Shown here: positions 19,908 to 32,854 of the stretch, one piece after another
Numbering within the stretch: the first letter of the stretch is position 1
How the letters are laid out: each line of letters opens with the position of its first letter
Assembly: GCA_027622555.1 (NCBI GenBank)
Contig: JAQBYJ010000031.1
Location: 1 to 52,001 of the forward strand
Source: Verrucomicrobiota bacterium
Lineage (GTDB): Bacteria > Verrucomicrobiota > Verrucomicrobiia > Opitutales > UBA2995
Direction: 5' to 3'
DNA: 52,001 bases
Translations under genes and position numbers: made by a program
Notes under the pieces: model-generated
Seen by the model: only the letters and a program-made list of their open reading frames with translations
Told to the model about the DNA's origin: nothing
Databases searched by the model: none

Positions 19908-20756
19908 ATGAAAGCATACTCCCGAATTTCAGCCCTTCTTTTCTTTTTGGCGATTTTCCTATCTACCAGTCTGATTCAAGCGAAAAACGATCGAGTGGCA
20001 GTTAAAGCAGTTGCAACGGAAGAATACACTCTAGATCGAGCTCGAGGAGAGTCAAAAGTGCAAACCTATCACATAATGGAAGGTAAGTATTTCCCCGGGA
20101 ATACGGCCCGCCCCAGTATGGAAGAGATCAGTTTCATGGATATCGCTCAAGACCTGGCCCATAACCTGAAAAAGAATAGTTTCTTCTCTGAAACCAATCA
20201 GGAAAAAGGAGATTTGCTGATTTTGGTTCATTACGGTGTCACAGATTACGATGCGGACTATATGGAGCTAAATTCCATAGATTCCATAGATGATTTCGGT
20301 TACGGAGCGGTTGAAAGCAATGATCCATTGTTTGAAGCTTCTTTTCGGGAAGCATTTCAGAGCCAGCTGTTCGATATGCAGTCGGTCAATGATGGCGCAG
20401 CCCAAGCGTTGGGTCACAAGGCCCGTTTGCTAGGGATGGAAGAGCTCTTCTCTTCGTCCGCGACGGACATGCAAGTCCATGAAATGCGGCAGATTCTCGA
20501 GCAGGAGCGCTTTTTTATTGTTATGCAGGCATTCGATTTACCCGCCTACCGAAAGGGAGAGAAAAAGCTATTGTGGTCAACTCGTTACAGCATGAGTGCC
20601 AAGGGCAAGAACTTTGGTCAGTCCATCGCCGAGATGAATTTTGTGGCTGGTGAATATTTTGGTCAAAATCGTAAAGGAGTGAATCTAAAGCGCTCAACCG
20701 ACGATTCAGATGTGAAGCTTGGAGAGGTTGAAGTAATAAATATTTCAACTAATTAA
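19908..20756 (+). CDS. Secreted protein of an unnamed family, paralogue 1
   Basis: A 282-residue exported protein (signal peptide residues about 1-26, cleavage likely after IQA) that I do not recognise. It shares with the next two genes a mature N-terminus RVAVKA, then QTYHIMEGKYFPGN, MDIAQDLAHNLKK, KGDLLILVHYGVTDYDADY, LLGMEELFSSS, FDLPAYRKGEKKLLWSTRYSM and a final GEVEV. The KGDLLI-Y-G-T element and the RKGEKK-W-TRYS element are the strongest conserved blocks. Between them lies a variable acidic stretch. It looks soluble and periplasmic. Some features recall small DUF4136-like envelope proteins, but not enough to claim membership. Confidence 0.8.
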   Translation: MKAYSRISALLFFLAIFLSTSLIQAKNDRVAVKAVATEEYTLDRARGESKVQTYHIMEGKYFPGNTARPSMEEISFMDIAQDLAHNLKKNSFFSETNQEKGDLLILVHYGVTDYDADYMELNSIDSIDDFGYGAVESNDPLFEASFREAFQSQLFDMQSVNDGAAQALGHKARLLGMEELFSSSATDMQVHEMRQILEQERFFIVMQAFDLPAYRKGEKKLLWSTRYSMSAKGKNFGQSIAEMNFVAGEYFGQNRKGVNLKRSTDDSDVKLGEVEVINISTN

Positions 20757-20920
20757 ATCCCGCATAGCTCTCGAATTTAAATTCCTCCAAAATTGCGGCC
20801 GAATCGAGTATTGCTTCAAAAAAATAGTCAATTTAAACCCCGTTGTCCTTTCCCCTGGTCGTAACCTATTCAGCCGTTTTCACGTTATCGCCCAAACGCT
20901 TTAAATCCATAAAGAACGTC

Positions 20921-21781
20921 ATGATAGCTCATTTTAAGAAAACTTTCATCGTGGGAGCCTGCTTACTGATTGTCAGCGCTGTGTGGGCTTCGGCAAAAGA
21001 AAACCGCGTTGCAGTTAAGTCCATCGCCACTCCTGAATTTTCTAAAACTAGGGCTGGTAGCGGATCCAAAAAGATTCAGACCTATCATGTCACACAAGGG
21101 AAGTACTTCGGCGGAAACACGGCTGACAAAAGCATGGATGGTGTCACCTTTATGGATATTGCCGAAAACCTCGCCGCAAATTTAAAGCGTCAGGGTTTTT
21201 ATTCCGAGCCCGATGACGATAAGGGTGATTTGTTGATTGTTATCAACTATGGAGCTACTGATTACGACGCAGATTATCAGGAACTGATGGGGATCGATTC
21301 TCTGGATGACCTGGGATTTGGTGTCTCCAGCGAAGAAGGCCTAGATGAGTTTGAAGCCGCAGACGCCTTTGCTGCCGATTTTGAAAACATTCAGGCCATG
21401 AACGAAGCTGGACAAATGGATAAGATCTACAAAGCGAAATTGCTTGGAATGGAAGAGTTGTTCAACGACAGCGCTACCACCCAACAGGTTTTCGAGTTCG
21501 AGGACATGGTGAATGAGGAACGCTATTTTATCTACTTAATTGCCTTCGATCTTCCTTCCTACCGAAAGGGTGAGAAGAAGGTGATGTGGACTACGCGTTA
21601 CAGCATGCGGGCCATCGGACAACCGTTTGATGAAGCCATTGCCGAGCTGAACACGGTGGCCAGCCACTTTTTCGGTATGAATATGAAGGGGATGCAGAAC
21701 AGACGTGCTTCAGATGAATTCGAAGTGCAGATGGGCGACATCGAAGTCATTTCAGATGATGACCCTGAACCGGCGAACTAA
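20921..21781 (+). CDS. Secreted protein of an unnamed family, paralogue 2
   Basis: A 286-residue paralogue of the genes on either side. The ATG at 20921 is chosen because it begins a normal signal peptide (MIAHFKKTFIVGACLL, cleavage likely after ASA); an in-frame ATG at 20843 adds 26 residues of unlikely leader. Conserved blocks are RVAVKSIATPEF, QTYHVTQGKYFGGN, MDIAENLAANLKRQGFYSE, KGDLLIVINYGATDYDADY, LLGMEELFNDS, FDLPSYRKGEKKVMWTTRYSM and HFFGMNMKGMQNRRASDEF. It is closer to paralogue 3 at its C-terminus (IGQPFDEAI, FGMNMKG). The variable middle is rich in Asp and Glu. Function unknown. Confidence 0.8.
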   Translation: MIAHFKKTFIVGACLLIVSAVWASAKENRVAVKSIATPEFSKTRAGSGSKKIQTYHVTQGKYFGGNTADKSMDGVTFMDIAENLAANLKRQGFYSEPDDDKGDLLIVINYGATDYDADYQELMGIDSLDDLGFGVSSEEGLDEFEAADAFAADFENIQAMNEAGQMDKIYKAKLLGMEELFNDSATTQQVFEFEDMVNEERYFIYLIAFDLPSYRKGEKKVMWTTRYSMRAIGQPFDEAIAELNTVASHFFGMNMKGMQNRRASDEFEVQMGDIEVISDDDPEPAN

Positions 21782-21853
21782 ACGCGGGGAATGGGCGCAT
21801 CTTTCCCATTTGACCCTTCAAGCCTGAAAAGCTAGGTTTTCTCCGATTTCTTG

Positions 21854-22753
21854 ATGGAAGCAATGCTGATGCTCAGGCGAAACGTAAATAAGCGATTACT
21901 TTCAACCTCCGTCATTTTGGCCGTTGGATGCATTCTTATGCTTTGTGGCTGTGTTCACGGAAAGGCAAACCGTGTGGCTGTCAGGGCAGAAGCAAAAGAG
22001 GAATTCCTGCTGGATCGCTCGCGTAATGATGCCAAAAAATTTCAGAGCTATCACCTGCTTAAAGGTCGGTACTTTGGCGGAAATGTGGCAGATGAGAGTA
22101 TGGAAAACATGGATTTCCTGTTTCTTGCCGAGCACCTGGCCCAAAACCTAAAGCGGCAAAATTTCTATTCGGAAGACGATTCGGATAAGGGCGATTTGCT
22201 AATAATGGTTCGCTACGGGGCTACCAACTATGTGGAGGACGGCATCGACTCCGGTGTCTACGCAATCGATGACTTCTCCTCCGCTTATGGTGAACCTGAG
22301 GGCGGAATCTTCGATTCTGACCTTTCAAAGGTACCTACGCCCGACTTCTTACGTTCCGTTCTTCCTGAACAGCGCCGAATGTTAAAGGAACGTTACGCCA
22401 GGGCCAAGTTAGTAGGGATGGACGATATTTTCAGTTCCAAGGTAACGGATTATGAAGCCTATGTGCAAAGAGAGCTAGCCCGTGAGGGCCGCTACTTTAT
22501 AATCTTAACGGCCTTTGACCTTCCGCTCCTCAGACAGGGAGAAAAGAAAATTCACTGGAGCACCCGTTACAGCATCCGTACCATCGGCCAACCGTTTGAC
22601 CAAGCGATACAGGAATTGAATCACGTGGCCGGTGATTACTTCGGCAAGAATATGAAGGGCCTCATTTCCAAACGCGCCACTGATGATTCCAAAGTGGAAA
22701 TGGGCGACATCGAGGTGATCGAAGGAGGAGAACTGCCTTCCGGCCAGAACTGA
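21854..22753 (+). CDS. Putative lipoprotein of an unnamed family, paralogue 3
   Basis: A protein of about 299 residues in the same family as the two preceding genes, with RVAVRAEAKEEF, QSYHLLKGRYFGGN, FLAEHLAQNLKRQNFYSE, KGDLLIMVRYGATNY, LVGMDDIFSS, FDLPLLRQGEKKIHWSTRYSI and a final MGDIEVIEGG. It differs by an N-terminus ending MLCGCVHG, which could be a lipobox with Cys as the anchor, and by a longer variable middle (about residues 120-175). In-frame ATGs at 21854, 21863 and 21869 are all possible; the last has GGAAG seven bases upstream. It ends 75 bases from the convergent beta-barrel gene. Confidence 0.75.
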   Translation: MEAMLMLRRNVNKRLLSTSVILAVGCILMLCGCVHGKANRVAVRAEAKEEFLLDRSRNDAKKFQSYHLLKGRYFGGNVADESMENMDFLFLAEHLAQNLKRQNFYSEDDSDKGDLLIMVRYGATNYVEDGIDSGVYAIDDFSSAYGEPEGGIFDSDLSKVPTPDFLRSVLPEQRRMLKERYARAKLVGMDDIFSSKVTDYEAYVQRELAREGRYFIILTAFDLPLLRQGEKKIHWSTRYSIRTIGQPFDQAIQELNHVAGDYFGKNMKGLISKRATDDSKVEMGDIEVIEGGELPSGQN

Positions 22754-22828: not shown

Positions 22829-24217
22829 TTAAAACCCATATCTGCCGAACAAATACCCGTTGGTGTTGTTCTCAAACTGACCAAAGAAGGTGGATTGCTC
22901 TTTACCAAAAAACAAATTCGCTCCACCACCTATTGACCAGTTGTCGTCGATTTTATAGAGTATGTTAGGACGGAGGTAACCGTCTCGATCGCTGGGAGAC
23001 CAAAAGGTAAAGAGGGATAGCTGGAGATTTTGCATCATCGCAAATTTTGTCAGACGCATGGTCAACAAATGGCGCGTGCGGTCCGGGGCGGTCGCTCCAT
23101 CCGGCAGTTGAGAAACAAATGCACTGTGACCAGATCGTTGTTCGGCATAGTATTGAAAGGACCCGGTCAGATCCTGCCCGAGCTCGCGCTCGTAGCCAAG
23201 TAGCCAGCGTGTTTCAGAATTCCGGATTAGCGAATTCGTTCCGTTGTGATCCTCCTTACTTGTGTAGTGCCCTATTTCTGAATACGCGATTCCGCCCAGG
23301 CTTGGTTGGCGCCAGCTGGCTCCGGTCACTTGAAGTTTTGGAAAGGTGGGGATCCCATCCATGGTTTGACCAGCCGGGCTTTTCCAGTAGCCGTCGTAGA
23401 AGTATAGCGCGACTTCTGCGTTTCCGATCAATCGATGGGCACGTAAGGCAAATTCACTACCCGTCGCAAATGTTGGATTCACTATAGCATTCTGTCCAAC
23501 CAGCTCACCAGAACCTGAATCAAAATAAGAAAGTCTTTCACCGGTAATGAAACGGTCGGGATCAAAGCGCGGCGACACGACCGCATCCAGATTGATCACA
23601 TCGGAAAAGAAATTGATGCGGGCGGAGTTGCCAGGTGCCTTCAAGTATTCCTCATCTCGGCCTAGCAGGAAAGACTGCCAGTCTTTTGGGAACAGGTCAT
23701 TTATAAAGAGCAGGTCCCCGGTTCCCCATGTAACGGTTTGGCGGCCCAGCTTCAAATCGAGATGATCATTTAACTGTCCACCGAGAGTTGCTTCACGCAG
23801 GTCCAACCAGCCTGTCCCGCTGCGGAAATCGATACTCTGGCTTTCAGCCTCGGAGTCGTAGAGAAGATCGCTGGTCAGTCGATAATTCCAATCGCCCATG
23901 CTACCTCGATTCTGAAGCTGCAATCTTACTTCACCCAAGGTTCCAATATCCGAGACTGGATCTTTTTGAAGGCGAGCTCCTGCCCTCATTTCTAGCGATC
24001 CGCTTATGTTTATTGAAGGTTTTGTCTTCCCAATTGAATCATCGTTTTCAGGTTTCGACGGTAACCTCAACCCCGGAGGTAGTTCAGGCGATTCTGAGGC
24101 TTCTTCCTTTAAGCCAGAAGGTAAGGGTGGATCTCCCAATCCGGGAGGCAAAGCTGGCTGGGCGAACAGAATACTCCCTGGCAACAGGATCGTGGCACAA
24201 TATTTCAGGTAGCGCAT
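22829..24217 (-). CDS. Outer-membrane beta-barrel protein of the MMPL export cluster
   Basis: A 462-residue protein from the ATG at 24217, chosen because it starts a signal peptide (MRYLKYCATILL, cleavage near LFAQ). A proline-rich stretch follows, with repeated LPPGL/LPSGL units at about residues 22-52. The rest has many short amphipathic strands with aromatic girdles (GDWNYRLTSDLLYD, LDLKLGRQTVTWGTGD, RTRHLLTMRLTKFA) and ends in GRYGF, a barrel-like terminus. GRQTVTWGxGD is a pattern seen in DUF1302-like and related porins found beside RND/MMPL pumps. It is the last gene of the minus-strand cluster with the LolA-like and MMPL genes and could provide the outer-membrane exit or receptor. Confidence 0.75.
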   Translation of the reverse strand: MRYLKYCATILLPGSILFAQPALPPGLGDPPLPSGLKEEASESPELPPGLRLPSKPENDDSIGKTKPSINISGSLEMRAGARLQKDPVSDIGTLGEVRLQLQNRGSMGDWNYRLTSDLLYDSEAESQSIDFRSGTGWLDLREATLGGQLNDHLDLKLGRQTVTWGTGDLLFINDLFPKDWQSFLLGRDEEYLKAPGNSARINFFSDVINLDAVVSPRFDPDRFITGERLSYFDSGSGELVGQNAIVNPTFATGSEFALRAHRLIGNAEVALYFYDGYWKSPAGQTMDGIPTFPKLQVTGASWRQPSLGGIAYSEIGHYTSKEDHNGTNSLIRNSETRWLLGYERELGQDLTGSFQYYAEQRSGHSAFVSQLPDGATAPDRTRHLLTMRLTKFAMMQNLQLSLFTFWSPSDRDGYLRPNILYKIDDNWSIGGGANLFFGKEQSTFFGQFENNTNGYLFGRYGF

Positions 24218-24370
24218 CAATATCGTTTGTATGTGAGTGGATCGTGTCTTTGGAATACTCAGGCGGCATAGCAGGGATGCTATGGCCCTACCTCTATTGA
24301 GTGATAAGGTAGGGCAAGTGCGTCCTCGTAGTGCCGTCATTTCTATCTGACCGCATTTCATTTGTGTAAA

Positions 24371-25165
24371 CTAAAACTCCAGGAATTCCATCGGCGGATT
24401 CCGTAAATACCGTTCTGCAAACATGCTCTCTTCAAGCCCTCTGTCGTAGGCGATATTCGAATATTTTAGCACGGTCGATCCTCCACGATCATTGTCCGTC
24501 ATTTTGGCCTGGATTACGGTGGGATGACCATCGATGGTTTCAACGCCCAGCGCTTCATACATGCGGTACACTTCGTTCTTGGAATTATAGAACTCCGTTT
24601 TCACCGCGATTCCGGTTGGCTTGTGAATCCAGCTTTTGAAGTAGGTGAACTCAACGGAACTCGAGTCTTTGGGAGTGCTCTTCAATTCGAAATAGTGTTC
24701 GGTCACCGCAACCAGCTCATGATTGTCTTCCACAGGTGATCGCCCCGAAACATCTTCATAAAAGAAATGAGATCCGACGAAGCTGGTTCGTTCGTCACTC
24801 GCTGCAATTCTCCTGACCAGATCCAACGCCGGTAGATATAGCCAACGGTCATCACTTGCTTGTGGATGTTTCCAAACGAGGAATGCCGTTTCGCTTACAT
24901 CTGCCGGAGCCTTGAAGTAAACATAGAACTGCTGGTCGCCGAGGTCCTCACCGACATCGCGACGGAGGATAACCAATTCCCGGCTTCTTTCCCGACCGCG
25001 AGCGTCAGTGATGGTCATGGATACCAGAGCCCCTCCATCCTTACCCTGATAATAGGCAGCGGTTGCCGCTTTGTTAGCGATGTCTTGAGCACTGGGAGTT
25101 TCCTCACCGCTTAGCGTGAATGCGCCGAGCAACAGTGTGGTTAAAATGAGTGTTAGCGCTTTCAT
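24371..25165 (-). CDS. LolA-like outer membrane lipoprotein-sorting protein
   Basis: A 264-residue exported protein (signal peptide about residues 1-20). The mature sequence has the features of the LolA-like group annotated as outer membrane lipoprotein-sorting protein: MTITDARGRERSRELVILRR, ETAFLVWKHP, DDRWLYLPALDLVRRI, FVGSHFFYEDVSGRSPVEDN and a final LRNPPMEF. Such proteins are usually encoded directly beside MMPL/RND pumps, as here, and are thought to carry a lipid or hydrophobic cargo across the periplasm; the cargo is not known. It begins 13 bases after the MMPL gene ends, so the two are surely one operon. Confidence 0.88.
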   Translation of the reverse strand: MKALTLILTTLLLGAFTLSGEETPSAQDIANKAATAAYYQGKDGGALVSMTITDARGRERSRELVILRRDVGEDLGDQQFYVYFKAPADVSETAFLVWKHPQASDDRWLYLPALDLVRRIAASDERTSFVGSHFFYEDVSGRSPVEDNHELVAVTEHYFELKSTPKDSSSVEFTYFKSWIHKPTGIAVKTEFYNSKNEVYRMYEALGVETIDGHPTVIQAKMTDNDRGGSTVLKYSNIAYDRGLEESMFAERYLRNPPMEFLEF

Positions 25166-25178
25166 TATTTTACAGGAG

Positions 25179-27536
25179 TTAAAGTGATTTCTTGAAAAGA
25201 TGCTTTTGAAATAGCGTTTGTAAGGCTGGGAGGATCAGAAGGGTGGCCACTCCCGCTATGATCAGAATCGCGGAGATGAGTACACCAACCGTTTTATACG
25301 GAACCAGGGGTGCAAGTAAGAGAGGCGAAAATCCTACACCAATCACAATCAGGTTGCGCACAATTGCTCTGGCGGGTTCTCCAAACATGATCTGCAACGT
25401 TTCAGCCCAGGTGGAGTATTTTTTCCGCAGTTCCTGACTCCGTGCCAGAAAGTGAATCGCGTAATCCACCGCCAGTCCGAGGCTTAACGAGGACAATACA
25501 GCGACCGGCATGTCGTACGGTTTTCCAACGATGCCAATCATGCCGTAGATTAGGCTGATCGTAATTGTCAGAGGGATCATGGACAACAATCCCCATGAAA
25601 TGGACCGAAATAGGACGGACATCAAAATGAGGACGATGACAAAGCTGGAAAGTAGGGCACTCAACATCCCTGCCACCATTTCATCCTGCCAGATCACGTT
25701 GATATAGGTTAATCCAAACCAGTCTGCTTTCACTGTTCCCGGGAAAGGGTTTTCAGCCAGGTAAGCTTCGACTTCGTCGACTACGGCATTCATTTCTCTA
25801 TTATCTCCACTGTTCAGCTGAACCCATATGACTGCCTTTTGATAGTCGGGAGTTATAAAATGCCAGAGGTCGTCCGGCCGGTGACTGCCTTCGTAGGTCA
25901 GCAACGTTTGTGCTACCCCGCGACTTGAGTCCGGTATTCTGTAATATTCGGGATTCCCTTCCAGAAGCTCGCGGTAAACCGTTTTGACGACTCCGGTTAT
26001 AGAGCTGGTTTTACCCACGTTCGAAAGGGTTTCCAGGTGGACTTGTAATTGATCTATGTGGCGCAGAACTTCCGGATCCTTGAATGCCTCCTCCGTGGAA
26101 GATTCCAGGGAGATGTATGCAGGATAGGTGCCAGCAAACCGTTCATTGAGGACGGAGTCGGCGATGCGTATCCGATGGTTTGGCTCGAACCATTTAACCG
26201 GGTTGTCGTTAATAACTATTTGGCTGATTCCATAACCGGAGATCGCCAATAGTACGAGAGTAGCTGACACGATTAGCTTGGGTTTGGATCCTGTAAATTT
26301 CGCGATGTTCGAAAGGATACCTCCTGTGTGAGGCTTTCCCTCAACACCTGATGTTGGTGCGTACCCAAAATTTTGTAACGACTTCTCAGGAAGTAAAGCA
26401 ATGTAAGCCGGAATAAAGACGATCGTGAAAAGCCAGGCCAGCATCACTCCTAACGCCACAAAAATGCCAAACACCTGCACTGGAGGAATCGGGGCCAACG
26501 CTAGAGATCCAAATCCCGCGGTGGTTGTCAAGGAGGTAAACAGCATGGGTCGCCACAACGTTTTAATAACGGCACTTGCGGTTTTCTTTTTGTCTTTGAA
26601 TTCCGGGTACCGGTCGTAGAACTCCGACAGGATATGCACCGCATCCAACACCGCGATAGGCATTATGAAGATCGGGATCATCGAACTCATGATGTGAATC
26701 GTATTCCCACTCAACACTAGGGCGGCCATGGTAACGATCACCGACATCATCGCCACGATCATAGGTGAGATGATCAGAGTCAGACGTTTAAAGAAGAACC
26801 ACATTAACACAAAAATAAGCGCCATCGCCATGGGTGCGGATATACCCATCTGGATAAACATTTGAACGCCGAACGTATCGTTCGCTACGGGAAGACCTGT
26901 TATGTGGTAGACTTCACCGGCGGACTCGAGGCTCTCAATCTTATCCAAAAGGGCTGCAGACACTTCGTGACTCCTGTCTTTCGATTCGAGCGGGATGAAT
27001 AGCAATAGCGATTTTCCCGCCTCATCAATTAACGATCCTTTCATCAAAGGAAGGTTGAGCATGGCATCTCTTAGTTGATGGGCTTCCTCTTCCGTTTCGG
27101 GAGGTTTCTCCATTAACCAATCAAACGACACCGTGCCGATTCCACCTTGTTCGATATTGTCGAGTGTCGAGGGAGAAAGAATCTCATAAGCGATGACCCC
27201 GTCCAGAGTCTTGGCGAACTCTGTTAACTCGAACACATTCGCCAGGGTATTTATGTTAAACACTCCGGCTTCATGTTGTTCGTTGACGACTCCCAGGACG
27301 ATTTGGTCATAGAGAGCGAATTCCGCCTTTTTCTCCCGATGGAGCATTCGATGGGGATTATCGGAGGCCAGCATGTTTTCCGGATCCGTATCGACTTTTA
27401 CACCTGGTAACGGGGCAAATACTTCCGGCCAGATGGTGGGCAATGCTGCAAGCAGGAGCATGAGCACCGTTAGGCCGGCGCTCAGCCATACAACCATTCG
27501 TGGATGTTTTAATCCTGTTTCAGCGATTGAGGCCAT
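25179..27536 (-). CDS. MMPL/RND family transporter
   Basis: A 785-residue inner-membrane pump with two similar halves, each a first membrane helix, a large periplasmic loop and five more helices. The N-terminal helix lies near residues 14-35. The halves carry IMPIAVLDAVHILSEFYDR and LGLAVDYAIHFLARSQELR, the matching helix-4 motifs with an Asp likely to take part in proton relay. The length fits HpnN-like and other MMPL exporters rather than tripartite drug pumps of about 1000 residues. The substrate is probably hydrophobic. Upstream is a DUF2892 gene two bases away, downstream the LolA-like gene, so these act as one unit. Confidence 0.92.
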   Translation of the reverse strand: MASIAETGLKHPRMVVWLSAGLTVLMLLLAALPTIWPEVFAPLPGVKVDTDPENMLASDNPHRMLHREKKAEFALYDQIVLGVVNEQHEAGVFNINTLANVFELTEFAKTLDGVIAYEILSPSTLDNIEQGGIGTVSFDWLMEKPPETEEEAHQLRDAMLNLPLMKGSLIDEAGKSLLLFIPLESKDRSHEVSAALLDKIESLESAGEVYHITGLPVANDTFGVQMFIQMGISAPMAMALIFVLMWFFFKRLTLIISPMIVAMMSVIVTMAALVLSGNTIHIMSSMIPIFIMPIAVLDAVHILSEFYDRYPEFKDKKKTASAVIKTLWRPMLFTSLTTTAGFGSLALAPIPPVQVFGIFVALGVMLAWLFTIVFIPAYIALLPEKSLQNFGYAPTSGVEGKPHTGGILSNIAKFTGSKPKLIVSATLVLLAISGYGISQIVINDNPVKWFEPNHRIRIADSVLNERFAGTYPAYISLESSTEEAFKDPEVLRHIDQLQVHLETLSNVGKTSSITGVVKTVYRELLEGNPEYYRIPDSSRGVAQTLLTYEGSHRPDDLWHFITPDYQKAVIWVQLNSGDNREMNAVVDEVEAYLAENPFPGTVKADWFGLTYINVIWQDEMVAGMLSALLSSFVIVLILMSVLFRSISWGLLSMIPLTITISLIYGMIGIVGKPYDMPVAVLSSLSLGLAVDYAIHFLARSQELRKKYSTWAETLQIMFGEPARAIVRNLIVIGVGFSPLLLAPLVPYKTVGVLISAILIIAGVATLLILPALQTLFQKHLFKKSL

Positions 27537-27538
27537 GA

Positions 27539-27757
27539 TTACTCTCCCTTTTTGTTCTCAAAGGCACATCCGCCTTTGAAGCCCATCGCCCGGAAGGCCA
27601 TTGCGGCGGGACAGAAACCTGTGAATGCCGATTGGATCATATTAAACCCGGCAAATGCAGTCAGGAAATGCCAGTAGGGATGGACCCAGATTCCAAGAGC
27701 TAAACTAACCAGGACCACAAATCCGGCCCATACTAAAACAGCGCGATCTATATTCAT
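27539..27757 (-). CDS. DUF2892 (YgaP-type) inner-membrane protein
   Basis: A 72-residue membrane protein with two hydrophobic segments (VLVWAGFVVLVSLALGIWV and the one ending at FAGFNMIQSAFTGFCP). It matches DUF2892: MNIDRAVLVWAG, then GFNMIQSAFTGFCPAAMAFRAMGFKG. The Cys in GFCP and the later GGCAF are typical. This domain forms the membrane part of the rhodanese protein YgaP, which handles sulfane sulfur, and it is often controlled by ArsR-type regulators. It is the first gene of the minus-strand export operon and is divergent from an ArsR regulator, from which it is separated by 83 bases containing two identical operator-like palindromes. Confidence 0.9.
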   Translation of the reverse strand: MNIDRAVLVWAGFVVLVSLALGIWVHPYWHFLTAFAGFNMIQSAFTGFCPAAMAFRAMGFKGGCAFENKKGE

Positions 27758-27788
27758 AATATTTTTGGGTTGATTTTGGAGTAAACAA

Positions 27789-27834
27789 ATTAGATAACTC
27801 TAATATAGTCAACGCTAAATTAGAGTTATCTAAT
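27789..27834. promoter_or_regulatory. Paired 16-bp operator sites between the ArsR gene and the export operon
   Basis: ATTAGATAACTCTAAT occurs at 27789-27804 and again, inverted, at 27819-27834. The two sites match exactly. Each is itself a near palindrome (TTAGA-N4-TCTAA), as expected for a dimeric winged-helix repressor. Their centres are 30 bases apart, close to three helical turns. The right-hand site ends 6 bases before the ArsR start codon, so binding should block the ArsR transcript as well as the divergent operon. Confidence 0.85.
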
Positions 27835-27840
27835 ATATTT

Positions 27841-28170
27841 ATGCCCGAAAGTTCCGCCAATCAAACCGGCACGCTGCCAAATCCTGAAGACATGGGGAAA
27901 GCGCTTCAGACACTTAGTGCCTTAGCTAACGAGCAACGCCTATTCATCCTTTGCATGCTTTCTCAAGAAGAAGAAATGTCAGTAGGCCAATTGAATGAGC
28001 AACTGGACCTGAGTCAGTCCGCCTTGTCCCAACATTTGAAAAAGCTAAAGGACCAAGGTTACGTCGAAAGTCGGAAGGATGGCTTGAACGTTTATTACCG
28101 TATCGCCAAGGAAGACGTCCTGGAAATCATTGGGCTGCTGCACAAGTTGTATTGCAACCCTGGTGGCTGA
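27841..28170 (+). CDS. ArsR-family regulator, SqrR/BigR-like thiol-switch type
   Basis: A 109-residue winged-helix repressor. The recognition helix is in LNEQLDLSQSALSQHLKKLK, followed by the wing YVESRKDGLNVYYRI. The metal-binding ELCVCDL motif of arsenic sensors is absent. Instead there are two cysteines, Cys38 in RLFILCML and Cys105 in LHKLYC, the positions used for the dithiol that reacts with per- or polysulfides in SqrR, BigR and YgaV. This suggests de-repression when sulfane sulfur rises. The paired palindromes just upstream indicate control of itself and of the divergent DUF2892-MMPL-LolA-like operon. The sensing chemistry is inferred from cysteine position only. Confidence 0.85.
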   Translation: MPESSANQTGTLPNPEDMGKALQTLSALANEQRLFILCMLSQEEEMSVGQLNEQLDLSQSALSQHLKKLKDQGYVESRKDGLNVYYRIAKEDVLEIIGLLHKLYCNPGG

Positions 28171-28245: not shown

Positions 28246-29703
28246 TTACCCCTGCGGCTTATTGGAAAAATCATCCAGAACCGGTCCGGGGTTATTGATC
28301 TTGGCAGCCCCGGTAGCTTCGCCGGGAAGTTCTCCGCGCTTGTCACCGCCTTGGGGGCGTTTTGGACCGCGGTCGGGTGACGGGTTTTCCGGAATGGTGT
28401 CGCCGGTTTCCCGGGACCATTGGCTCAGCGCTTCTGCCAGCTTTCTTTCAATGGCTTTGAATTCCCGGTTTCCTGCCAAATTGATCATTTGGTGCTTATC
28501 CGCTTTCACGTTGTAGAGTTCAACTTGCGGACGCGGCGCCAATGGCACGTCCTCTTGCCAGGGTAAGGTTTCTCCGGCCCGGTATTTTTCCCAGAGTTCA
28601 AGAGCGGCTGGGAATTTGGAGTCGTCACTCTCTGTGCTCAGAGCGGCTTTGTTATTGAAAGCATTGCGAATGTAGAGCCAATCACCGAAACGCACGGCCC
28701 TTTCGTGGGCGGCGTAGACATGCCAGTTGTGCTCGGAAAACACATAATCTCGCACCTTGGTTTTGGGGTTCTTCAGGATGGGGGCAAGGCTCACGCCCAG
28801 AAAAGTCGGACCTGCCTTTACGCCGGCCAGATCCATGAAGGTAGAGGAAAAATCAATGGAGCTTACCAGCGCTTCTGTGCGACCCGGGTTGATGTTACCC
28901 GGACTCCAGATAATGAGAGGCGTTTTAACACCGCTGTCATACAGGCGTGTTTTGCAGCGAGGAAATGGCCTGCCGTTGTCTGCGGTATAGACGAAGTAAG
29001 TGTTGTCCGCTACCCCCTGACGTTTCAACTCCTCGACCAGCTTACCTGCATAATAATCGGACCGGCTGACTTCACTGAAATACTCGGCCAGATCCTTTCG
29101 GGTTTCCGGACCGTCATACAGATAGGGAGGTACCACGATGTCATCCGGATCGTAGGCGGGCGAAAATTCATCCAATTGCCAATCCCGGTGCGCGTCGTGA
29201 GAGCCGAACCAGGCAAAAAACGGTTTATCCTTGGGGCGTTCGCTGAGCAGCTGGACCCAGTCTTCGCTTCCAGACGGGTGTCCGCCATCGCTGTCCTTGA
29301 CGAACCCAATTTTCTCGGGGTCATTCATGTGGTTTTTCCCGGAAATCAAAGTGTAGTAACCAGCGTCTCTCAATTTTTGTGCCACTGTTACCTGATCTTC
29401 CGGCAAGACGAGGTGAAGTTCCGGCGCGCCGGTGTTGTGGGGGTAGCGTCCCGTAATGATGCTGCAACGGCTCGGACTACAGCTGCTTGTTGTCAGGTAA
29501 GCGTTATCAAATACCAGGCCTTCGGAAGCGATGCGGTCGAGATTCGGTGTCTTGACGAAAGTGTTTCCGTAGGCACCAATATCTTCTGCCGAGATATCAT
29601 CCGTGATGAAAAACACAAAATTCGGACGGTTCTGAGCTATGATTTGAGAGGCGACACCCGCCAGTGACCAAAGAGCAAAAAAGAGAAGGGTAGATTTTTT
29701 CAT
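28246..29703 (-). CDS. Secreted formylglycine sulfatase
   Basis: A 485-residue type I sulfatase with a signal peptide (about residues 1-24). The metal-binding start RPNFVFFITDDISAED gives the paired aspartates, and TTSSCSPSRCSIITGRYP holds the modification site C75-S-P-S-R, where Cys becomes formylglycine. SGKNHM and SHDAHRDW supply further active-site residues and YTADNGRP carries the later metal ligands. The C-terminal domain ends with a Gly/Pro-rich tail. It would remove sulfate esters from a polysaccharide or smaller substrate in the periplasm or outside; the pattern resembles the heparan-sulfamidase-like group, but specificity cannot be settled. The maturase gene is not in the window. 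Confidence 0.92.
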   Translation of the reverse strand: MKKSTLLFFALWSLAGVASQIIAQNRPNFVFFITDDISAEDIGAYGNTFVKTPNLDRIASEGLVFDNAYLTTSSCSPSRCSIITGRYPHNTGAPELHLVLPEDQVTVAQKLRDAGYYTLISGKNHMNDPEKIGFVKDSDGGHPSGSEDWVQLLSERPKDKPFFAWFGSHDAHRDWQLDEFSPAYDPDDIVVPPYLYDGPETRKDLAEYFSEVSRSDYYAGKLVEELKRQGVADNTYFVYTADNGRPFPRCKTRLYDSGVKTPLIIWSPGNINPGRTEALVSSIDFSSTFMDLAGVKAGPTFLGVSLAPILKNPKTKVRDYVFSEHNWHVYAAHERAVRFGDWLYIRNAFNNKAALSTESDDSKFPAALELWEKYRAGETLPWQEDVPLAPRPQVELYNVKADKHQMINLAGNREFKAIERKLAEALSQWSRETGDTIPENPSPDRGPKRPQGGDKRGELPGEATGAAKINNPGPVLDDFSNKPQG

Positions 29704-30103: not shown

Positions 30104-30916
30104 ATGCCCCACATTGAGGAGTTGCTGGGCAGGTTAAAAGCCTGGTTTAACCCAGTTGAAGGAACACTTACCGCCTTTTCCGGAGGCGTCGACTCCGCAT
30201 TGGTCCTGTTTCTCTCCCACAAGTTTCTTGGTGAAAAGGGAATCGGCGTCATTGCAGATTCTCCCAGCCTGAAGCGAAGAGACCTGAAAGTGGCCACCGA
30301 TTTTTGCGACCAGTTTGGTATCCAGCTCCGGATTATAAACACCGGCGAGTTGAATAATCCCAACTACGCGAGCAATCCCAGCAACCGTTGTTTCTTTTGC
30401 AAAGATACCCTGTATCGGACCTTGGAGGATATACGTCCGGAATATCCGGAGTACTATGTGCTAAACGGCACCAATTTAGATGACCATGGCGACTACCGTC
30501 CCGGGTTGCAGGCCGCTAACAATCACGGTGTCTATTCTCCCTTGTCCGATTGTGGAATCACCAAGAAAGACGTCCGGCTCCTGGCCAAGTACTTTGAGCT
30601 TCCTGTGTGGGACAAACCTGCCAGTCCCTGCCTCAGCTCCCGTATCCCTTATGGACAGGAAGTAACGGAAGAAAAACTTCGCCAGATCGAAGCCGCTGAG
30701 ACGATGCTCAATCAATTGGGTTTCGACGAAGTCCGCGTCCGACACTTTGGGTCAGAGGCACGTATCGAAGTGCCTTCCGATCTTCTCAATCAACTGCTTC
30801 CTTTCAAAACTCAGATTCAACAAGCCTTCAATGAAATTGGCTTTGAAACCGCGACCATCGATACCGAAGGATTGGTTAGTGGAAAATTGAATCGCGCGAT
30901 CGCAACTCATGGATGA
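30104..30916 (+). CDS. larE: LarE, ATP-dependent sulfur transferase for the nickel-pincer cofactor
   Basis: A 270-residue PP-loop ATP pyrophosphatase. The PP-loop FSGGVDSAL is at about residues 25-33, followed by the family block NPSNRCFFCKDTLY and KPASPCLSSRIPYG. LarE activates the carboxylates of pyridinium-3,5-biscarboxylate mononucleotide and supplies the sulfur atoms of the nickel-pincer nucleotide. Cys176 is placed like the sacrificial cysteine of the Lactobacillus enzyme; Cys96 and Cys99 could complete a three-cysteine site as in cluster-containing LarE proteins. It overlaps larB by 8 bases and follows the small membrane peptide closely. Confidence 0.93.
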   Translation: MPHIEELLGRLKAWFNPVEGTLTAFSGGVDSALVLFLSHKFLGEKGIGVIADSPSLKRRDLKVATDFCDQFGIQLRIINTGELNNPNYASNPSNRCFFCKDTLYRTLEDIRPEYPEYYVLNGTNLDDHGDYRPGLQAANNHGVYSPLSDCGITKKDVRLLAKYFELPVWDKPASPCLSSRIPYGQEVTEEKLRQIEAAETMLNQLGFDEVRVRHFGSEARIEVPSDLLNQLLPFKTQIQQAFNEIGFETATIDTEGLVSGKLNRAIATHG

Positions 30917-31568
30917 ATACAATCTGGATATGGACCGGGAAAGCCGCCTCGGTTTCCCGGAAGTCGTTTACGGTCAAACCAAATCGGTTGAGCTGCTGAC
31001 GAAGATTTTGGGGGACTACGAGCAGGCGGGCAAAAATGCTCTGGCTTCTCGTTTGCAACCGGAGAAGGGCATAGCGCTTCTAAAAACATTTCCCAACGCT
31101 TTCTTCGATCCGCTTTCCGGCTCCTTTCTTTTGAAGAAAAACCAGCTCGACGAAGCCAACGCCAAGGTAGGAATTCTTTGTGCAGGCAGCTCTGATCTCT
31201 ATGCGGTGAATGAAGCGCTCTATACGCTAAATCTTCTGGAGGAGTCTGCGGTCTGTATCAACGACGTCGGTGTGGCGGGTCTTCACCGCCTGCTCAATCG
31301 CCTGGATGATCTCAAAAAATTCAAAGTCCTTATTGTGGTTGCTGGATTTGAGGGAGCGTTACCTAGTGTGGTGGGAGGTTTGTTGAAACAGCCCATTATC
31401 GCCGTTCCAACGAGTATCGGTTATGGTGTGGCCCAAGGAGGGCATTCTGCGCTACATGCGATGCTTTCCAGTTGCGCGAATGGAATCACAGTCACCAACA
31501 TCGACAACGGTTATGGTGCAGCCATGGCGGCCTACCGCATCATTCAACTGTTACGTTCCCGTTCATGA
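30909..31568 (+). CDS. larB: LarB, P2CMN synthase (NaAD carboxylase/hydrolase)
   Basis: A 219-residue protein with the LarB layout: an N-terminal segment RLGFPEVVYGQTKS, which is a family marker, and a PurE-like domain from about residue 85 with VGILCAGSSDLYAVNEA, GVAGLHRLL, VVAGFEGALPSVVGGL and PIIAVPTSIGYG. LarB carboxylates the pyridinium ring of nicotinic acid adenine dinucleotide and releases AMP, the first step in making the nickel-pincer nucleotide. It overlaps larE by 8 bases and larC by an ATGA, so the three proteins are translationally coupled. Confidence 0.93.
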   Translation: MDEYNLDMDRESRLGFPEVVYGQTKSVELLTKILGDYEQAGKNALASRLQPEKGIALLKTFPNAFFDPLSGSFLLKKNQLDEANAKVGILCAGSSDLYAVNEALYTLNLLEESAVCINDVGVAGLHRLLNRLDDLKKFKVLIVVAGFEGALPSVVGGLLKQPIIAVPTSIGYGVAQGGHSALHAMLSSCANGITVTNIDNGYGAAMAAYRIIQLLRSRS

Positions 31569-32854
31569 GTACTCTTTATGTAGAACCATTTTCCGGCTTG
31601 GCTGGCGACATGTTACTCGGTGCCCTGTGTGGATTGACCGACGGGTATGACGAAATCAAGGCTTTGCCCGATAAGCTCCATTTGCACGATGGCAAGATCG
31701 AGATCAACGAAGTCGAGAAGAATGGAATCGTTTGCAAGCATGTCAAAGTAATCGACTTGAATGAGGGGAAGGAAACACACCACCATTCGCACGACGACGA
31801 GCACAGTCACGGGCATGATCATTCTCACGATCACGACCATGGGCATAGTCACGACCACTCGCACGACCATGATCACGGACACTCTCACAATCACAGCCAT
31901 GGCCGACACTTGAGTGATATTCTGCACCTGATTGACCACGGACACATTTCCGATGGAGCGAAAGAGATAGCCAAAGGCATTTTCCAACTGATCGGCGAGG
32001 CTGAGTCGAGTGTGCACGATATTCCGATCGAAAAAATTCACTTTCACGAGATCAGTGGCGTTGACTCGATTATCGACATTGTCGGTTGCGCGGTGCTTCT
32101 CGATAAGCTCGGTGTTGAAAAAACATTCGCCGATCCGATTTGCGTGGGATTCGGAATGGTGAAGACGCAACATGGCCTGCTTCCAGTTCCGGCCCCGGCC
32201 ACGGCCTTGCTTCTAGCAGGTATGCCAACTTACAAAGGCACCGAAGAAGGCGAGCGCGTGACGCCAACCGGTGCCGCCATCCTCCGCTACTTGAAACCCG
32301 AATTTTCAACTCCGACCCTCAATGTTTCCAAAATCGCCTATGGACCGGGTCAGAAAAACTTTATCGGTCCCAACGTGGTTCGTGTGTCTTTAGTGTCCGA
32401 GGTGACTCAATCGAAAAAGACGCTCTGCGTAGTGGAGACCAATTTGGATGACTGTTCACCCGAATTGCTGGGCGATTTTTTCCAAACCGGTTTATTGAAA
32501 GCCGGAGCTGTAGACTTTACGCTTTCCCCCGTGACCATGAAAAAAGGCCGTCCGGGGCTCAAACTCTCCGCTTTGACTTCGGACGAGAACCGTGAGTCGG
32601 TTTGTGATTTCATTCTGGAGAACACGACAACCATCGGAGTTCGCTTCTACTCGGTTGAACGGAAAGAACTCGATCGAGAGGCGGTGTCTTTAGAAACCAA
32701 ATATGGAACAATCAAGGCCAAGCAAGCAACGACTCCATCTGGAAAGACTCGTACAAAAGTGGAGTACGATGACCTGCAAAAGGTTGCCTCAGAAAAGGGG
32801 ATTTCCGTCCTTCAATTGAAGCAGGAGATCGAGGGAACCGATAAACCGGTATAG
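31565..32854 (+). CDS. larC: LarC, nickel insertion protein with a His-rich tract
   Basis: A 429-residue protein from the ATG at 31565, which overlaps the larB stop by ATGA; an in-frame ATG further up lies inside larB and is rejected. The N-terminus YVEPFSGLAGDM is the family signature. Residues about 72-115 are a long histidine/aspartate-rich tract of HSHDH-type units, typical of nickel-binding LarC proteins. Later blocks include FHEISGVDSIIDIVG, TPTGAAILRYL, ETNLDDCSPE and MKKGRPG. LarC inserts nickel into the dithio-carboxylated nucleotide in a CTP-dependent reaction. Both halves (LarC1 and LarC2) are in one uninterrupted frame here. No larA-type racemase gene follows. Confidence 0.93.
   Translation: MSTLYVEPFSGLAGDMLLGALCGLTDGYDEIKALPDKLHLHDGKIEINEVEKNGIVCKHVKVIDLNEGKETHHHSHDDEHSHGHDHSHDHDHGHSHDHSHDHDHGHSHNHSHGRHLSDILHLIDHGHISDGAKEIAKGIFQLIGEAESSVHDIPIEKIHFHEISGVDSIIDIVGCAVLLDKLGVEKTFADPICVGFGMVKTQHGLLPVPAPATALLLAGMPTYKGTEEGERVTPTGAAILRYLKPEFSTPTLNVSKIAYGPGQKNFIGPNVVRVSLVSEVTQSKKTLCVVETNLDDCSPELLGDFFQTGLLKAGAVDFTLSPVTMKKGRPGLKLSALTSDENRESVCDFILENTTTIGVRFYSVERKELDREAVSLETKYGTIKAKQATTPSGKTRTKVEYDDLQKVASEKGISVLQLKQEIEGTDKPV

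Follow-up and report, generated by a model that had tools for sequence, protein, structure and literature searches.

A five-gene cluster at positions 22829-28170 of the DNA analysed here, a 52,001-nucleotide stretch of contig JAQBYJ010000031.1 from a Verrucomicrobiota bacterium (assembly GCA_027622555.1; the whole stretch is called the window), probably encodes a persulfide-induced route that carries a hydrophobic substrate from the inner to the outer membrane under the control of a dithiol ArsR regulator. The operon (22829-27757, minus strand) holds the genes of a YgaP-like transmembrane protein (YgaP-TM), a resistance-nodulation-division (RND) pump of the MMPL type, a LolA-like carrier and an outer-membrane beta-barrel, while the ArsR gene is divergent on the plus strand. 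An earlier note on this DNA had named these five genes and their families, and both the open reading frames (ORFs) and the family profiles agree with it. The operon that it had given as 25179-27757 is, however, longer, as stated above, and the domain that it called DUF2892 is PF11127, the YgaP-like transmembrane domain. These parts, like the cysteine conservation, the sulfur-gene neighbourhoods and the operators described below, are read from the sequence. The features of the locus are the following.

27841..28170, plus strand: putative ArsR-family repressor, 109 aa (HTH_5 60 bits; nearest solved relative HlyU)
27819..27834, no strand: predicted operator 2, palindrome ATTAGAGTTATCTAAT, from the sequence
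27807..27812, minus strand: TTGACT, -35-like hexamer of the operon promoter, consensus match only
27789..27804, no strand: predicted operator 1, palindrome ATTAGATAACTCTAAT, from the sequence
27539..27757, minus strand: YgaP-like transmembrane protein, 72 aa (PF11127 40.1 bits, gathering cut-off 25.3)
25179..27536, minus strand: MMPL/HAE3-type RND transporter (the pump), 785 aa, without cysteine (Pfam MMPL 107 bits, cut-off 20.5)
24371..25165, minus strand: LolA-like periplasmic carrier, 264 aa (LolA_like PF17131 177.9 bits, cut-off 30; solved relatives 9tp6, 4z48 and 3bk5)
22829..24217, minus strand: outer-membrane beta-barrel with a predicted OprD/OccK- and AlgE-like fold and a conserved TWGTGD..FINDLFPKD region
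24032..24160, minus strand: N-terminal tail of the barrel (approximately precursor residues 20-62), predicted to be disordered, in which LPxGL is repeated three times (as ALPPGLG, PLPSGL and ELPPGL)

The ArsR protein has only two cysteines, Cys38 in α2 (RLFILC) and Cys105 in α5 (LYC), both of which align with those of HlyU, and it lacks the CxC metal motif in α3. Its winged-helix fold is recognized by the HTH_metalloreg model NF033788 (95 bits, cut-off 55), and its recognition helix, SQSALSQHL, is identical to that of HlyU. The nearest solved relatives by sequence are three HlyU proteins (82 bits), followed by NolR, YgaV, the SqrR-type entries 6o8k-6o8o and BigR; the protein is not a BigR equivalog (NF040642, 70.3 bits, cut-off 155). 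These features support its assignment as a dithiol repressor of the persulfide-sensor type (SqrR/BigR/HlyU/YgaV class). With persulfides, HlyU forms a tetrasulfide between its two cysteines and releases the DNA, while H2O2 does not react (PMC10509353), and the same chemistry would be expected for the ArsR of the window. In Escherichia coli the related YgaV acts as the repressor of ygaVP, and sulfide relieves this repression (PMC9774250). Induction by hypochlorite, nitroxyl or electrophiles in general, which the earlier note had also entertained, finds no support here.

To collect relatives of the locus, 85,000 species genomes were scanned for the pump, with confirmation by tblastn; of the 577 pump relatives obtained, the best 80 were used, and searches by taxonomic rank supplied further loci. 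In total, 130 loci (L numbers below) were oriented and annotated, their neighbourhood genes being called by ORF length and similarity and not by a gene finder; many belong to metagenome-assembled genomes, for which the taxonomy is uncertain. The pump, LolA-like and barrel genes are adjacent in nearly all of these loci, in many phyla, and the search for the same neighbourhood that the earlier note had called for recovers the gene order outside the window. Both cysteines are present in 18 of the 21 divergent ArsR proteins, compared to 8 of the 30 co-directional ones, which, with the HlyU-aligned pair of the window, supports the proposal of a persulfide-type dithiol regulator made in that note. 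Of the 19 regulators that are separated from the pump by a YgaP-TM gene, 18 are dithiol proteins (Fisher p 2e-6, uncorrected for descent). The dithiol loci all fall within one part of the pump tree (28/28, in a 50-row group with a support of 83), and most are found in a 42-row group (support 99) of Verrucomicrobiota, Alpha- and Gammaproteobacteria and Desulfobacterales. Within the window's own order the pump-carrier-barrel set is patchy, the pump being found in only 5 of 373 genomes of the order and in none of five further species of the genus; of the 388 genomes searched in the phylum, 35 gave a LolA-like match, which is strong in about 25 of them. A different kind of co-directional ArsR precedes the operon in L125, L131, L133, L136, L138, L139 and several Omnitrophota loci, with Cys38 replaced by D/E or another residue and with a C-terminal cysteine cluster that resembles that of atypical As(III) sensors.

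Two palindromes of the form ATTAGA-N4-TCTAAT lie between the divergent starts, as the arms of a larger inverted repeat (27 nt with a 6-nt gap). The pattern TTAGANNNNTCTAA (TTAGA-N4-TCTAA) occurs at only two sites in the 6.0-Mb genome, both in the divergent promoter, whereas the reversed control pattern occurs nine times, which suggests that the regulator probably has a single target, its own divergent promoter. Among the dithiol loci, all 11 whose regulator has the HlyU-type helix QSALSQHL contain ATTAG-N6-CTAAT with at most one mismatch, compared to 1 of the 16 whose helix is different. A TTGAC hexamer is situated between both palindromes in the window (TTGACT) and in L041 (TTGACG), and in L046 and L047 TTGACA stands immediately before the operator; a repressor bound at these positions would obstruct the polymerase. 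The contig of L041 contains a second ATTAG-N6-CTAAT palindrome (G707:C279:6788-6803) just upstream of a short pump-like fragment, a site that the regulator of this locus may also recognize. Taken together, the recurrence of the gene order in many phyla and the genome-unique palindromes of the promoter argue that the cluster is more than a chance arrangement.

The link to sulfane sulfur, which the earlier note had drawn from the YgaP-like domain, is supported by sulfur genes within or beside the operon of relatives. In L047 a gene similar to sulfide:quinone oxidoreductase (SQR) and a rhodanese gene belong to the operon, the order being YgaP-TM, SQR-like, pump, LolA, barrel and rhodanese, with ArsR divergent, and the same rhodanese follows directly after the barrel in L046 and L048. 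The order in L227 is ArsR, SQR and YgaP-TM, divergent from the pump; SQR adjoins the pump in L224 and L225; and L221 and L222, on a deep branch of the family, have rhodanese, SQR, pump, LolA and barrel in succession. In L161, from the window's order, a rhodanese-thioredoxin protein is encoded after the barrel on the opposite strand, and proteins of the CoA-disulfide-reductase type are encoded in L054, L057 and L138, those of L057 and L138 containing a rhodanese domain. The L054 protein (L054:4109-6553, 815 aa) combines a CoA-disulfide reductase part with a C-terminal DsrE2-like part and is encoded directly upstream of an ArsR-pump pair. The SQR calls are based on Pyr_redox_2, on similarity to the type III SQR model that stays below its cut-off, and on identity to the L047 protein (64-67% for L224, L227 and L215, 39% for L222). 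In 27 genomes (92 Mb), which served as the background, 194 rhodanese domains were counted; 8 of them are encoded no more than 8 kb from the pump, where 0.94 would be expected (p 0.003 when counted as five independent cases). In the same genomes 5 of 9 SQR matches are near the pump and, without the query, 4 of 8 are within 8 kb, with 0.04 expected.

As to the membrane components, the CP-motif cysteine of the YgaP-like protein, Cys49, is conserved in every one of 75 relatives; the window protein consists of the transmembrane domain only and, unlike full YgaP, has no rhodanese domain joined to it. The pump is of the MMPL/HAE3 type and not of the CusA/CzcA type, its best NCBIfam family being HAE3 RND (TIGR00921; 224.7 bits, under the cut-off of 351.9), and it scores 66 bits against the HpnN model (cut-off 752). 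The carrier remains under the cut-off of DUF1329 (19.1 versus 23.1 bits).

The barrel gene very likely starts at 24217, because this start gives a signal peptide, which is followed by QPALPPGLG; the upstream ATG at 24361 would place about 48 extra residues in front. The barrel scores 16.0 bits against DUF1302, under the gathering cut-off of 23.2, and its profile gave no match to PDB sequences. A fold model was therefore used. The AlphaFold model has a mean predicted local distance difference test (pLDDT) score of 88, with low confidence at residues 1-62, which are read as disordered. Its best structural matches are the OprD/OccK channels (Z ~22) and the alginate exporter AlgE (Z 21.7), and this model, along with the parts of the operon, supports the inner-to-outer-membrane route of the earlier note. 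The tail carries a tandem repeat, EP[AS]LPxGLG, present in 1-5 copies in 27 of 109 barrels, compared to 1.1 expected from shuffled sequence. It is found in 18 of 24 dithiol loci and in 9 of 85 others, and it extends across phyla (the window, the barrels of L039, L042, L047, L217, L224 and L230, and others). A search of six genomes with the repeat peptide returned the barrels themselves as the clear matches and one further weak match (E 0.5). We propose that the repeat is a short docking motif that would link the barrel to the carrier or the pump; to our knowledge, such a tandem tail on a barrel has no precedent.

On this basis, the following mechanism can be envisaged. A dithiol ArsR of the HlyU/SqrR class would be bound at the two palindromes, which overlap the divergent promoter, keeping both its own gene and the operon at a low level. 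A rise in sulfane sulfur (persulfide or polysulfide) would cross-link Cys38 with Cys105, and the repressor would leave the DNA; we infer persulfide to be the signal and derepression to be its effect. The Cys-bearing YgaP-type membrane protein, the pump, the LolA-like carrier and the OprD/AlgE-like barrel would then be made. The pump would take a hydrophobic or amphiphilic molecule out of the inner membrane, the LolA-like protein would shuttle it and the barrel would release it outward, the direction of export being that presumed from RND proteins in general. This substrate class is plausible, because AmeABCD, the nearest worked-out cassette, protects against apolar monoterpenes.

A number of observations weigh against this explanation. 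The window genome lacks the SQR type of the relatives, the operon has no adjacent sulfur enzyme, and the seven rhodanese domains of the genome lie elsewhere, leaving the YgaP-TM gene as the only sulfur-linked neighbour in the window itself. The conservation of the two cysteines among orthologues, on which the earlier note had staked its proposal, holds in most divergent regulators but fails in the nearest relative of the window (L039/G134, 67% pump identity), which has a different, co-directional ArsR without both cysteines; the sensor can thus be exchanged and does not belong to the transporter as a constant component. In the wider pump family, other control prevails, the majority of loci having no ArsR, an extracytoplasmic function (ECF) sigma pair or other types of ArsR. 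Finally, the loci are related by descent, and independent-pairs tests on the tree, in which the dithiol regulator was compared with the barrel tail and with the position of YgaP-TM, had too few informative pairs and were not significant.

We have also considered alternatives to the persulfide-induced route, which differ in the substrate and are not all exclusive of it. A real possibility, although not the one that we expect, is that the cluster serves envelope lipid remodelling, in which a membrane lipid, such as a hopanoid-like lipid, a phospholipid or a damaged lipid, would be carried to the outer membrane or away from it, with the thiol switch reporting redox stress only. HpnN and the sterol/hopanoid RND proteins are indeed among the relatives of the pump, and thioredoxin, peroxiredoxin or AhpCF genes adjoin several loci. 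In loci of the Zixibacteria type (L089, L093-L097, L104-L109 and similar ones), moreover, genes for an ECF sigma factor and a zinc-finger anti-sigma factor, a common form of envelope-stress control, precede the pump-carrier-barrel operon. However, the SQR and rhodanese genes inside the operon of relatives indicate sulfur and not redox stress alone, and no recurrent lipid-synthesis gene was seen in the surveyed operon neighbourhoods. The Zixibacteria-type operon, which often ends with a YgaP-TM gene, represents the same cassette under different control.

It is rather doubtful that the cluster is an AmeABCD-like efflux system for solvents or xenobiotics (apolar or organometallic compounds) whose dithiol ArsR would be triggered by thiol-reactive toxicants such as organotin. 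AmeABCD confers tolerance to monoterpenes (PMC6394551), a Thalassolituus MMPL-LolA fusion and a porin are upregulated on C28 alkane (PMC6304351), and tributyltin is stated to derepress the YgaV operon as well (PMC9774250), all of which would fit. The linkage to SQR and rhodanese, on the other hand, is unexpected for a solvent pump, and the surveyed neighbourhoods show no recurrent hydrocarbon-degradation genes.

A dedicated exporter of hydrophobic sulfane sulfur, by which S8 or long organic polysulfanes formed by SQR and rhodanese would pass from the inner membrane to the outside, seems unlikely, in spite of the position of the SQR gene, which in L047 separates YgaP-TM from the pump and in L221 and L222 immediately precedes the pump. 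The same holds for its fullest form, a persulfide-induced, envelope-spanning exporter composed of the RND pump, a Cys-free LolA-type shuttle and a barrel recruited via the EP[AS]LPxGLG tail. The pumps of dithiol loci have on average 0.59 cysteines, compared to 3.1 in other family members, and the LolA-like proteins are nearly always without cysteine, features that might suit the passage of thiol-reactive cargo. As a sign of such cargo, the cysteine poverty of the pump is given little weight, since other RND proteins of the window genome, which serve as its control, have only 1-4 cysteines. The missing SQR of that genome and the many family members without sulfur neighbours also speak against such an exporter. 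That the cluster is a metal-stress pump under a metal- or metalloid-sensing ArsR, as the family membership of the regulator and the As(III)-sensor-like cysteine clusters of other loci might suggest, is very improbable, as the cysteine positions speak against metal sensing by the ArsR of the window (only the persulfide-class pair, no CxC in α3) and the pump is not of a metal-efflux (CusA/CzcA) type.

Outside the cluster, three tandem paralogues of about 285 aa, apparently secreted and without a confident Pfam match, are encoded at 19908-22753 on the plus strand, convergent with the barrel gene. On the other side, a sulfatase gene (28246-29703, minus strand) is convergent with the ArsR gene, and LarE-, LarB- and LarC-like genes for nickel-pincer cofactor synthesis are located at 30104-32854 on the plus strand, the LarC-like protein having a strong match to PF01969 Ni_insertion.

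The closest known systems are HlyU and YgaV for the regulator and AmeABCD for the transporter. HlyU of Vibrio cholerae shares the Cys pair and the recognition helix and is the best solved relative, but it activates a hemolysin gene, whereas the ArsR of the window stands divergent from a transport operon; the footprinted HlyU palindrome, TAATTCAGACTAAATTA (PMC4330345), also differs in spacing from ATTAG-N6-CTAAT. The ygaVP operon of E. coli (PMC9774250) likewise ties a dithiol ArsR to a YgaP-type transmembrane domain, but YgaP is a rhodanese fused to that domain, which stands alone in the window (the operons of L046-L048 have a rhodanese as a separate last gene), and ygaVP has no pump, carrier or barrel. 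The BigR and SqrR regulons, with the Cys pair in α2 and α5 and sulfur-gene neighbours, control sulfide oxidation enzymes. AmeABCD of Castellaniella defragrans (PMC6394551) combines an HAE3-type RND pump with a LolA-fold protein and a barrel, the latter of the DUF1302 family. Its LolA-fold part is DUF1329 instead of PF17131, its AmeC (YCF48-like) gene is absent from the window operon, its substrates are monoterpenes, and no thiol-switch regulator has been described for it; the window operon is accordingly no AmeABCD cassette as defined by DUF1302, DUF1329, YCF48-like and HAE3 components. The hopanoid transporter HpnN is also an MMPL/HAE3-type RND protein but functions with neither a LolA-like carrier nor a barrel encoded alongside it (PMC6394551).

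In the open-licence literature, no persulfide sensor joined to an RND-LolA-barrel route was found, and the combinations MMPL with LolA and DUF1302, BigR with YgaP and MMPL, and RND with SQR, LolA and rhodanese gave no publication on this system. The targets of the persulfide sensors known so far are sulfide-oxidising enzymes, toxins or respiration. If the explanation proposed here is correct, it would provide a clue to the cargo of the widespread MMPL-LolA-barrel cassettes and to how cells clear hydrophobic sulfur, or the membrane damage that it causes, through the envelope. The named-strain hosts of such loci (Marinobacter, Amphritea and Pontibacterium) make the link between persulfide and export testable.

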